This document shows positions 50,620 through 56,003 of a stretch of 64,000 nucleotides of DNA, one piece after another (within the stretch, counting starts at the first letter, position 1; every line of letters starts with the position of its first letter). The position numbers were made by a program, and so were the translations under genes. The notes under the pieces were generated by a model, which saw only the letters and a program-made list of their open reading frames with translations, was not told where the DNA came from and did no database searches. The stretch comes from Haladaptatus sp. R4 (GTDB taxonomy: Archaea; Halobacteriota; Halobacteria; Halobacteriales; Haladaptataceae), in the NCBI RefSeq assembly GCF_001625445.1, contig NZ_LWHG01000021.1, positions 682,001 through 746,000 on the forward strand, in the 5' to 3' direction.

Positions 50620-53096
50620 CTACAGGAAGTAGCGATACCAGACGACGATGACGGATGGCGTCAACAGGATCGCCGTGAGATACGAGTAGAAGATACTCAA
50701 AGCCGTCACGAGACCGAACTGACCGAGAACTGGCGTGATGGCGAGAACGAGAATACCCGTCCCGGCGACCGTCGTGAGCATACTGCCGGTCAGCGCACCG
50801 CCAGTGCCGCGGACGGTTCGGGTGAGGGCGTCGAACACGTCGGCGTCCGTCGGGCGTTCGGACGCGTCCGTTCCCTGTTCGAACTCGTCGGTAAACCGAT
50901 GCACGACGTGGGCCGAGTAGTCGGTTCCCAACCCGAGCGCGATCGCGAGAACGGTCGCGGTGAGCGCGTTGAACGGGATGCCGAACAACCGCATCGTTCC
51001 GGCGAGGAGCGCGACGGCGACGACGCGGGAAGCAGGTTGATCACGCCGAAGGCCGCCCGCCCGACGAGCACGCGATAGACGAACGCGAGAAAGACGGCAG
51101 TCGCGATGAGCGCGGTGATGAGGCTCCTGAGAGCCGAGGCGAAGATGATCGACGCGACGGACTGGAATACGACGGTTTCGCCCGTCGCCGTCGCTTGGAG
51201 ACGATATCGCCCCGCGAGGGTTCGGGCATCACGAGCGACCGCATCCTGTGACGCACCGCTTTTCGTCGAGTAGACGACCTGTGCGTGCCGCTGGTCGGCC
51301 GTGATGTACTGGAGTGCCTCGTCCCGTGCGGGCGACGACAGCAACCGATCGTAAATCGTGCCGAGGTTATCGTCCGGAACGCCGTCACCGTCGATGTCGT
51401 TCCGTTGGACGAGTCGGCGGAATTCGGATGATTGAGCGCTGTAGTTCCGGATAACGGTGATGATGCTCTCGGAACTCGCCTGTCGATCCCTCTGGACGAA
51501 CGCCTTCGGCGGGTTGTGGTTCGCGTGCTGAATCGATTCCAGCGCGTAATCCTCGCGTAACGGCCCCCGAACGTACACCGTCACGGTGTCGCCCTGAACG
51601 GCGGCGAACTTCTCGTCCAGGAAGTTCGTCGTTTGGGTGACGGTGTACGTCCCCGGCGCGAACGGTTCCGGCAGCGATTGCAGATAGCTCGGCGTCTGTT
51701 CCGGCGGGAGGAAATCCTCGTTCGAGAAGGACGTACTGATGCCGGTGGCGTAGTACCCCGAAACGACCGTCACGAGCAGCGCGAACGCGAGAACGAACGG
51801 TGCACCGCGCCGAGCGAGCGTGACGCTGACTTGCAGGAGTCGCCCGAGTGCGGACCCTTCCTCGCCGAGCGGTCGTAAGCCGAACACGGGGAGGTCGTAC
51901 CGGTACCGAAGTCGGTCGGTTTCGACCTTGGCCGCCGGGAGGAAGATTCCGAAGATGAGCGCCGTGACGACGATGCCTATCGCGGCGACCAGTCCGAACT
52001 CACGGATCGGTTGCAGGCGACTCGTGAGGTTCGACCCGAACCCCATCACGGTCGTTCCCGTGACGATGAAGAAGGCGACGAGCAGTTGGTCGGTCGTTCG
52101 TCGCATCGACCTCCCGATTCCCAGTCCGGTGACGCGCTCCTCCCGGTAGCGGTTGATGGCGTGAATGCCGTAGTCGATACCGACCGCAAGGAGCAAAGGT
52201 GGCACCGCAACGAGCAGTTGTGTGAACGGAATCCCGATCCAACCCATGAACCCCAGCGTCCAAACCACGGTCATCACCAGCGAGACGACTCCGAGCAGGA
52301 GGTCCAAGGGGTCACGATAGGCGAAGATCAGGAAGACGAGTATCAGGATCGCGGCCGCGGGCGTGACGATGATGAGCGAGTCGAACGTGACGCTCGACAG
52401 TTCCGAGGAGATGATACCGCTACCGAACACGCGGATGTCGCTATCGACGCTCCCGACGACGGATTCCGAGCGGAGTTGGATCCGCGTGAGCGGGTCGTTC
52501 GCGCTCGATTCGGCACCCGCTTGCTGTGAGAGTCCACGCGGAATTCGATGATCGACGACGGCGATCGTCGCCGAGGCCGAGGCCGCCCGTGGATTGAAGT
52601 CCTTGCTCAGAAGGGTTCGAAAACCGGGCGTTCCCGAGGCCCGTCGAACGGCGATTTCGATCTCCGTCGGCGTCGCCTGCCGAACGGTTCGCACCTGTGC
52701 TTCGAGCGTCGTCGCGTTCGGATCGATGGTTCGTGCCACGATGCTCGCGGCGCTCGTCGTCGAGGAAACCCGGAGGTCGGTCCGCTGTTCGAGGCGGTAC
52801 TGAACCTCCAGCATCGCCAGCAGTTCGGGTTTCGAGAGCACGTTCCGGCCGGTTTGGATGAGCTGTGTGCTTCCGTTTTCCGCCGCGAACGGTGGCGTGA
52901 ACTCGCGGTTGACGGCGTCGAACGCCTCCTGTGCGGGGCTGTTTTCGGTGAACTGGCTCGTCCCGGATTCGGTCGAGATGCGAACGAGGCCGACACCCAA
53001 GACGGCGGTCAGGACGAGAAAGACGAGCAGAACGGTTTTCGACCGCTCGGCGATCCACACGTCGAGCCAGTCGATAACGCGTTGATAGTCCACCAT
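50620..53096 (-). CDS. RND/MMPL-family transporter, with one apparent frameshift
   Basis: The repaired protein is about 825 residues with two six-helix halves and two large outer loops: helix 1 VLLVFLVLTAVLGVGLVRIS, first core DSLIIVTPAAAILILVFLIF and VAVPPLLLAVGIDYGIHAIN, second core ATVLAIALGLGTDYSAHVVH. The G-x-D-Y sites lie on the fourth helix of each half. The frame breaks near 51028, at a GGG run on the plus strand; one missing base joins FGVINLLP to VVAVALLAGTMRLFGI. The COG1361 gene sits 6 bases upstream, so they form an operon, a pairing also seen in other archaea. Substrate may be lipid, drug or solute. Confidence 0.9.
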
Positions 53097-54698: not shown

Positions 54699-54827
54699 CC
54701 CATGAGAACCGTCTCCCCCGTTCGTGCCATTCGTTCGTCCCCCACACCTGTCACGACGCCACCATTTGTATAGGTTTGCCTCGTGTCGGAGTGAGGTTTC
54801 GTCCCGAAATCACGTCACAGGATACAG

Positions 54828-54882
54828 ATGACTCTATTCGAGAGTTGAAAGTTTGAAAAGCGCCCGAGGCGGGATTTGAACC
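54828..54882. repeat. Left flank plus tRNA-Asp 3' fragment (direct repeat, copy 1)
   Basis: This 55-base stretch repeats 55793-55847 with about four mismatches. It contains the 3' flank of the tRNA gene (GACTCTATTCGAGAGTTGAA) and the last 22 bases of tRNA-Asp in minus orientation (54861-54882). There the match stops, leaving a truncated tRNA: a typical attachment-site remnant. Confidence 0.8.
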
Positions 54883-55003
54883 ACGCCCGAGAACCTGCGC
54901 ACGGCGCAGAACCTCGGTCTGATTCAAATCCGTTGGCGATTTCGTCCTCACTGGGAGACGAGCAACGCATCTGCGTTGCTCGTCGGTGAGTTCGGAAGAA
55001 ATA
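54883..55003. other. Hairpin-rich spacer between tRNA fragment and first tRNA-Asp
   Basis: Two structured segments are seen. At 54890-54920 an imperfect palindrome (CTGCGC/GCGCAG core with flanking CCGA/TCGG pairs). At 54957-54984 a perfect 13-pair hairpin with a 2-base loop, arms GACGAGCAACGCA and TGCGTTGCTCGTC. No ORF of note. It could be the residue of an integrated element. Confidence 0.6.
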
Positions 55004-55076
55004 CGCCCGAGGCGGGATTTGAACCCGCGTCACAACCGTGACAGGGTTGTATGATGGGCCACTACACCACCCGGGC
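55004..55076 (-). tRNA. tRNA-Asp (GTC anticodon), copy 1
   Basis: The 73-base sequence begins GCCCGGGTGGTGTAGTGGCC and ends with the T-arm and acceptor complement CCCGCCTCGGGCG. The anticodon stem is CAACC/GGTTG with loop CTGTCAC, anticodon GTC. The 5' flank has a TATA-like CCTTAATAAG about 30 bases upstream (minus strand), so it should be expressed. Its 5' flank CTTCGCATTCACTTCTTTCT (plus orientation) is repeated beside copy 2, but its 3' flank differs from copy 2. Confidence 0.97.
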
Positions 55077-55096
55077 CTTCGCATTCACTTCTTTCT
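55077..55096. repeat. Right flank of tRNA-Asp copy 1 (20-base direct repeat)
   Basis: These 20 bases recur exactly at 55899-55918, next to tRNA-Asp copy 2. With the left flank and the tRNA itself they show that a whole tRNA locus has been duplicated. Confidence 0.85.
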
Positions 55097-55143
55097 CGCG
55101 CCCTTATTAAGGGGTGTCGATTTCGTCGCTCTATGGTACTACG

Positions 55144-55602
55144 TTACGTGGGTGAATAGTAAGCACACTTTCTAGGTGGGATTTCACCCGTGAACTCGTA
55201 CTCTTTCGCCCAATTGATCGAAGGATGGTCGATTTTGGCATCGAATCTAAGTTCCATTTTCTGTACTGTTGCTTCATTCACATATATCCAGTACGTTTTT
55301 CCGTTTCTTGGATAACGAACGACGAATGCATCGATCTTTCCGTGATATTGATTTTCGTGATAGTTCCCTTTTTTAGTTGTTTGTGAATGAGTATTGAATC
55401 GTATCGTTTCCTCCTTGTTCTGCCATGCCGTTTTGCACTGAATCCGATATAACTGTCCATCATCATCAACTATCAAGTCGTATTTGTCATTGTCGCCAAA
55501 TGGGATTGAAACGCTGTATCCATGCGAAATCATTTCGTGAATGACTTTCGCCTCGGTTTCATCTCCTCTATCCTTCGTATTTGTCTCACCCGAGCATCTC
55601 AT
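55144..55602 (-). CDS. PD-(D/E)XK endonuclease-like protein (group I intron-associated type)
   Basis: The 152-residue protein reads MRCSGETNTKDRGDETEAKV, then YDLIVDDDGQLYRIQCKTAW with the catalytic Asp (near 42) and Q-x-K (K56), matching the PD-(D/E)XK family related to group I intron-associated nucleases. The C-terminal half has GKTYWIYVNEATVQKMELRF. The gene and flanks (about 55100-55800) are clearly AT-richer than the rest of the window, a sign of transfer. It lies between the two tRNA-Asp copies, so it may be part of a small integrative unit. Confidence 0.8.
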   Translation of the reverse strand: MRCSGETNTKDRGDETEAKVIHEMISHGYSVSIPFGDNDKYDLIVDDDGQLYRIQCKTAWQNKEETIRFNTHSQTTKKGNYHENQYHGKIDAFVVRYPRNGKTYWIYVNEATVQKMELRFDAKIDHPSINWAKEYEFTGEIPPRKCAYYSPT

Positions 55603-55792
55603 CTGTCGTATTAACGATCTATATCAATTATATTGACTATTTCGGTGAGAGAGACAATTTTCCGAAATCGATTTTCACGAGGTATCGAAATTACCGAAGG
55701 GGTAGAAGGGGTAGTAAACTACGGGCGAGAGCCAACAGAACATGTAATGCTTCAGTCTACACAAGAATCGAGAATCACAGAAATCAGTAGAA

Positions 55793-55847
55793 ATGACTCT
55801 GTTCGAGAGTTGAAAGTTCAGAAAGCGCCCGAGGCGGGATTTGAACC
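55793..55847. repeat. Left flank plus tRNA-Asp 3' end (direct repeat, copy 2)
   Basis: This matches 54828-54882 with about four mismatches. Here it continues into a full tRNA gene instead of a fragment. The repeat is about 965 bases from copy 1. Confidence 0.8.
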
Positions 55848-55898
55848 CGCGTCACAACCGTGACAGGGTTGTATGATGGGCCACTACACCACCCGGGC
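55826..55898 (-). tRNA. tRNA-Asp (GTC anticodon), copy 2
   Basis: The 73-base sequence is identical to copy 1, including the GTC anticodon. The 5' flank keeps the shared 20 bases followed by a TATA-like CCTTAAGAG on the minus strand, so this copy should also be transcribed. The spacing between copies is 822 bases. Confidence 0.97.
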
Positions 55899-56003
55899 CT
55901 TCGCATTCACTTCTTTCTGGCTTGTACTCTTAAGGCTTTCCAATGACGTTCCGTATGTGGATTCGTGCCGAGCTATGTTAACGCATCCCGCTTGCCCAAA
56001 CCA

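Follow-up and report, generated by a model that had tools for sequence, protein, structure and literature searches.

The homing endonuclease I-Ssp6803I (PDB 2OST) is encoded by a group I intron of the Synechocystis tRNA-fMet gene, and this intron both houses the gene and shields its target. Bonocora and Shub (2001; cited in PMC1995217) name the anticodon region as that target in the title of their paper. The Seg/Mob endonucleases of phage T4 (SegF, and SegB in the tRNA region) are GIY-YIG/HNH enzymes encoded by free-standing genes near their targets, and they home without introns, with co-conversion from a distant cut (PMC2988022, PMC13096335). In the synthetic Cleave-and-Rescue design, an engineered CRISPR nuclease sits in tight linkage with an essential gene copy that has been recoded to resist cleavage, and the element spreads by loss of function (PMC7951863). 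In archaea, tRNA genes, tRNA-Asp included, serve viruses as attB (PMC4090602). As presented in PMC4090602 and PMC3293823, the hypothesis of Randau and Soll holds that tRNA introns shield against mobile elements, with viral integration as the threat.

We analyzed a 64,000-nt stretch of Haladaptatus sp. R4 DNA (hereafter, the window) in which a nuclease gene lies beside tRNA-Asp genes. The nuclease shares its Pfam family and predicted fold (TM 0.74) with I-Ssp6803I and, as we propose, also a target in the anticodon region of a tRNA gene. In contrast to I-Ssp6803I, its ORF is free-standing and located 3′ of an uninterrupted tRNA gene, and the proposed protection would lie in the recoding of one stem pair or, for tRNA-Lys, in an archaeal tRNA intron from which the ORF is absent. 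Judged by analogy, T4 SegF and SegB would be the nearest mechanistic precedents (PMC2988022, PMC13096335), although here a PD-(D/E)XK enzyme is found in archaeal chromosomes, an essential host tRNA would be the target and an allele is linked to the nuclease. The likeness to Cleave-and-Rescue would lie in the linkage between a nuclease and a resistant copy of an essential gene; the present system, a natural one, would more probably spread by gene conversion. As in the hypothesis of Randau and Soll, in the form cited above, an interruption of the anticodon region may block an attacker at the DNA level, but the introns considered here stand beside a tRNA-associated nuclease gene. From comparisons of sequences, we consider it probable that these nucleases are homing endonucleases without an intron of their own. 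Each would cleave a tRNA gene in its anticodon region and move together with a tRNA allele that is immune, either through recoding or through an interrupting intron.

Structure of the tRNA-Asp locus

All features of the locus are on the minus strand. As reported in an earlier note on this DNA, the window contains two tRNA-Asp(GTC) genes, which ARAGORN placed at 55825-55898 (copy A, upstream of the nuclease) and 55004-55076 (copy B, downstream of it). Between them, a free-standing ORF of 152 amino acids (55144-55602) encodes a putative homing endonuclease of the PDDEXK_5 family, similar to I-Ssp6803I. The nuclease region has a GC content of ~40%, compared with 61-63% in its surroundings. According to the sequence and the allele analysis, the anticodon arm occupies 55855-55871 in copy A (A28 at 55870, U42 at 55856) and 55033-55049 in copy B (A28 at 55048, U42 at 55034).

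The two copies, which had been described as identical with a shared 20-base right flank, have 99% identity over 96 nt (55004-55099 and 55826-55921), comprising the 73 nt of the tRNA and ~22 nt of 5′ flank. The repeated left flank described with them is also real. It forms part of a 60-nt repeat with 90% identity (54823-54882 and 55788-55847, direct repeat D2). One instance of this repeat includes the 3′ flank of copy A; the other includes a 22-nt fragment from the 3′ terminus of tRNA-Asp (54861-54882), directly followed by a second version of that flank (54823-54860). The flank repeat at 54823 thus adjoins not a full tRNA gene but the fragment, which is 121 nt from copy B. There are therefore three tRNA-Asp-derived pieces at the locus, two full genes and the 22-nt 3′ fragment. 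An imperfect palindrome of ~60 bp (54871-54932, folding z-score -5.5) ends in the tRNA T arm.

RNA polymerase genes, recognized from their translations, adjoin the locus from 56185. Because the arrangement recurs at the same site beside these genes throughout the genus, it is far beyond chance. Both tRNA-Asp genes are uninterrupted and the nuclease ORF lies outside them, so the nuclease is not encoded in an intron or intein. We found no integrase-like ORF in the interval, nor the integrase with attL and attR around a cargo that would mark an integrative element of the SSV or pNOB8 type. Elsewhere in the window, an MMPL/HAE3-type transporter ORF (50790-53096, minus strand) seems to be continued in another frame at 50620-50994, which suggests a frameshift or a sequencing error in that region (50620-53096).

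Duplication of tRNA-Asp

All nine of the nine Haladaptatus genomes have two tRNA-Asp genes at this site. In the family, the nuclease is present in 24 of 28 genomes, mostly between the two copies. Across the genus, the copies and their proximal 5′ flanks are closer to each other within one genome than between genomes. The promoters of the two copies differ, being of type A for copy A (TTTGGAAAGCCTTAAG in the Haladaptatus genus) and of type B for copy B (CGACACCCCTTAATAAG), and each is conserved genus-wide. These patterns indicate that the duplication is old and has been homogenized by gene conversion.

In the earlier note, the locus was read as a small integrative element whose insertion would duplicate the tRNA-Asp gene. 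The duplicated flanks and the third tRNA fragment fit this idea, as does the contrast between the carriers in the family, which in most cases have two copies, and genome G009 of the same family, which lacks the nuclease and has one 5′ flank, one tRNA-Asp and one 3′ flank. This single-copy locus is what that note had expected in relatives. However, tandem tRNA-Asp genes without the nuclease are common across the class, and about 30 nuclease loci have only a single tRNA-Asp. Among 106 Asp-type loci, the nuclease is located 3′ of all copies in 71 and between copies in 35. No consistent repeat was found at the nuclease boundaries; tRNA 3′ fragments often lie between the tRNA and the nuclease or beyond copy B. 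Comparison with empty sites in genus g7 gave no exact insertion borders, because the spacer past the tRNA varies in length and content there. Together with the distinct, conserved promoters and the lack of an integrase in the interval, these observations make a tRNA-duplicating element very improbable. We rejected the nuclease as the cause of the duplication because of the single-tRNA carriers and the nuclease-free tandems. The tRNA-Asp duplication is a separate and older event. What survives of the earlier interpretation is a probable selfish, nuclease-bearing unit tied to a tRNA gene that keeps working, but not one that duplicates its tRNA. At one locus (L271 1595-4574, genome G078), the tRNA-Asp genes are ~2.9 kb apart, compared with the usual 0.1-1 kb.

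Tandem units of ~107-175 bp often lie behind haloarchaeal tRNA genes (Asp, Lys, Ser, Phe and Arg). Each unit ends in the last 22-25 nt of its tRNA and holds a strong palindrome, the outer arms of which match the T arm of that tRNA. Such units were seen in the window (54861-54935) and at L218, L212, L221, L209, L115, L223 and L018-L030, and they resemble the tyrT/RtT repeats of E. coli. The palindrome at 54871-54932 is similar to the repeat at other tRNA 3′ ends, and 3′ fragments like that at 54861-54882 are found in tandem arrays of other haloarchaea. Both the 22-nt fragment and the palindrome probably lie outside the nuclease unit. We also considered tRNA 3′ fragments as the ends of an element. 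This was rejected, as they seldom bound the nuclease and are part of the separate tandem-repeat phenomenon.

Family, fold and conservation of the nuclease

The window nuclease belongs to PDDEXK_5 (PF11645; E = 9.3e-40, 136 bits against a cut-off of 26), in agreement with the AT-rich PD-(D/E)XK nuclease recognized between the copies before. Its sole sequence match in the PDB is 2OST (E = 1.7e-8). A single-sequence structure model was unusable (pLDDT 35), but an AlphaFold2 model built on 37 relatives reached a pLDDT of 86. When this predicted structure was searched with Foldseek, the top four matches were chains of 2OST (best E = 3.4e-10, TM 0.74). The best match in PADLOC was the 'homing endonuclease' model HEase (E = 2.7e-9). 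By sequence and predicted fold, the window nuclease is a free-standing relative of I-Ssp6803I. The predicted catalytic residues of the PD-(D/E/Q)xK active site (E17, D42 and Q55-x-K57) are intact, and E17, D42, Q55 and K57 are kept in ~99% of ~140 relatives. The dN/dS values between close nuclease pairs were 0.02-0.20, which shows purifying selection on intact copies, whereas stops, frameshifts or deletions have disrupted others. The nucleases adjacent to tRNA-Pro (L089, L090, L098, L138, L192 and L194) often have two or three PDDEXK_5 domains in tandem and are perhaps single-chain multimers.

Association with tRNA genes

We surveyed 391 genomes of the class, one per species, and found PF11645 in 192 of them. 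A tRNA on the same strand was located within 700 bp of the nuclease at 135 of 138 sampled haloarchaeal loci, a result that answers the earlier proposal to look for the nuclease beside other tRNA genes. At none of the 138 was the tRNA on the opposite strand only, and two of the three remaining loci have an intron-bearing tRNA-Lys nearby. ARAGORN run without its intron option misses intron-bearing tRNA-Lys and tRNA-Asn genes, and such loci then mimic tRNA-less nucleases. The partners are mostly tRNA-Asp, tRNA-Pro(TGG) and tRNA-Lys(TTT), with tRNA-Asn, tRNA-Met and tRNA-Ser also represented; one further partner is an intron-bearing tRNA that we read as Arg(TCT). The relatives in bacterial MAGs are 19-213 bp from a same-strand tRNA-Gly or tRNA-Ala. 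On viral contigs, 15 of 17 relatives are near same-strand tRNAs, among tRNA genes; in HSTV-4 and a Salmonella kuttervirus, tRNA-Asn or tRNA-Met is directly upstream of the nuclease relative. Plasmids yielded matches of 48 residues only. A literature search, mostly outside subscription journals, found no paper describing haloarchaeal PDDEXK_5 genes beside tRNAs.

The family is patchily distributed, with lateral transfer and a course of gain, decay and loss, as for homing endonucleases; its tree requires 50 changes of genus, compared with a minimum of 31. These observations bear on an explanation in which the nuclease is useful to its host. Like a restriction system without a methylase, it would destroy incoming DNA (viruses, plasmids and integrating elements) that carries ordinary tRNA-Asp or a derived attP, while the host recodes its own tRNA. 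Such restriction predicts a signature in the tRNA like that described below, and it agrees with the purifying selection on the nuclease, with the status of tRNA-Asp as a hot spot of insertion where tRNA 3′ fragments occur, and with the use of tRNA genes, including tRNA-Asp, as attB by archaeal viruses (PMC4090602). However, the patchiness, the decay and the way in which one nuclease type has repeatedly displaced another at a single slot fit a homing cycle, and the viral relatives lie in viral tRNA clusters like free-standing homing genes. We consider host-useful restriction unlikely.

Nuclease type and tRNA-Asp pair 28-42

The nuclease tree contains three Asp-adjacent clades, C1 (which includes the window nuclease), C2 and C3, and the type of nuclease is coupled to pair 28-42 of the neighboring tRNA-Asp across genera. 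Among 62 intact C1 nucleases, 60 are accompanied by A28-U42, one by C28-G42 and one by G28-C42. In comparison, G28-C42 was found with all 39 intact nucleases of C2 (14) and C3 (25). The allele changes only 4 times on the nuclease tree, against a mean of 33 with shuffled labels. Both nuclease types occur in 14 genera, in which they segregate perfectly with the allele among intact cases; a conservative sign test with one pair per genus, which does not fully correct for host phylogeny, gave 6e-5. Named GTDB genomes, in part of the same species as the main sample, gave 36 A-U and one C-G for C1, and 16 G-C and a decayed C3 with A-U for C2/C3. Five of the 391 genomes (G122, G304, G313, G329 and G341) have both alleles, and no intact nuclease was found in them.

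It might be argued that tRNA-Asp and the nuclease simply move as a haplotype in which pair 28-42 is a passive marker. With only 40-700 bp between the nuclease and the tRNA, the two should be transferred together, and the A-U allele also occurs without the nuclease. Yet in the same tRNA genes the acceptor pair 7-66 tracks the genus while pair 28-42 tracks the nuclease, a contrast that speaks against mere hitchhiking. In one carrier this very pair has changed independently (C28-G42), and in G349 a tRNA-Asp copy on another contig is likewise A-U. The mismatched genomes mostly have dead nucleases: G269 has a stop at codon 5, G385 a change of the catalytic D to G, and G011 a fragment. Parallel signatures at tRNA-Pro and tRNA-Lys, given below, also tell against linkage as the whole explanation, which we regard as quite unlikely. 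It could nevertheless account for part of the association between nuclease and allele.

Several observations count against homing with an immune allele. G317 (L195) has the sole intact C1-type nuclease beside a G28-C42 tRNA-Asp; it has at most 62% identity to its nearest relative and may have changed its specificity. The A-U allele is present without the nuclease at about 40 loci, whole lineages included. No convincing C1 relics were found at these loci, so A-U is not simply a scar of past nuclease carriage. The allele is thus not unique to carriers and may be partly ancestral. G-C is the majority allele of the class, yet it is carried by the hosts of C2 and C3.

Parallel cases at other tRNA genes

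A similar logic is seen at tRNA-Pro, with other stems, and at tRNA-Lys, with introns. Of 35 non-carriers, 23 have the commonest tRNA-Pro stem, CGGGC/GCCCG, but none of 20 carriers of a Pro-adjacent nuclease does (Fisher, 5e-7, not corrected for phylogeny). All 11 carriers at tRNA-Lys have an intron in the anticodon loop. Of the 38 genomes with an intronless tRNA-Lys, none is a known carrier at this gene, and in 12 others the intron is present but no intact nuclease was confirmed (Fisher, 3e-6, not corrected for phylogeny). For tRNA-Asn, 11 carriers with confirmed adjacency have an intron, but G035 and G374 have intact nucleases beside an intronless tRNA-Asn and count against our reading. Anticodon-loop introns were recorded for tRNA-Lys(TTT) at L058, L061, L064, L178, L186, L200 and L312, for tRNA-Asn(GTT) at L188, L190 and L203, and for a probable tRNA-Arg(TCT) at L201. 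The signatures at Pro, Lys and Asn are all within the anticodon region. Coupling consistent with protection by the resident allele was observed at Asp, Pro and Lys, with G317, G035 and G374 as the exceptions.

Anticodon nucleases are known from other families, and the location of the association in the anticodon arm raises the question of whether the protein is a toxin that acts on the tRNA itself, the altered stem making a resistant tRNA. However, the protein closest to it, in sequence as in fold, is a homing endonuclease that acts on DNA. The tRNA-Lys introns could shield the DNA but not the mature RNA, from which they are absent, so such a toxin fits the intron cases poorly. It seems most improbable that the nuclease works at the RNA level.

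Proposed mechanism and implications

Returning to homing into the tRNA gene, we infer that the nuclease cuts, where it cuts, that the altered pair gives immunity and that spread occurs by gene conversion. The window nuclease, whose gene closely follows tRNA-Asp on its 3′ side and in the same orientation, would recognize the tRNA-Asp anticodon arm as DNA. When its DNA meets a genome with ordinary G28-C42 tRNA-Asp, that gene would be cut. Repair from the donor would then co-convert the nuclease together with the donor A28-U42 tRNA-Asp. In DNA the anticodon stem reads as an inverted repeat, so a compensated change of one pair should alter both half-sites of the palindrome without harm to the tRNA; the A28-U42 carrier would keep its tRNA fold and be immune.

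A wider claim is that PDDEXK_5 nucleases form natural recode-and-keep homing drives throughout the class. They would cut the ordinary anticodon arms of tRNA-Asp, tRNA-Pro, tRNA-Lys or tRNA-Asn and spread with an immune allele, which is either a compensated stem pair or a tRNA intron. The opposite allele preferences of C1 and C2/C3 would lead to repeated allele swaps, and some sporadic archaeal tRNA introns would persist as immunity. In our judgment this claim could equally well hold or fail. Its key element is the prediction that the window protein cuts the G28-C42 tRNA-Asp gene and spares the A28-U42 gene. If true, engineered cleave-and-rescue would have a natural equivalent in cells, with an essential non-coding gene as the target. 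These nucleases would also provide a testable cause for two old puzzles, the compensatory switches of anticodon-stem pairs between close relatives and the scattered introns of archaeal tRNA genes.
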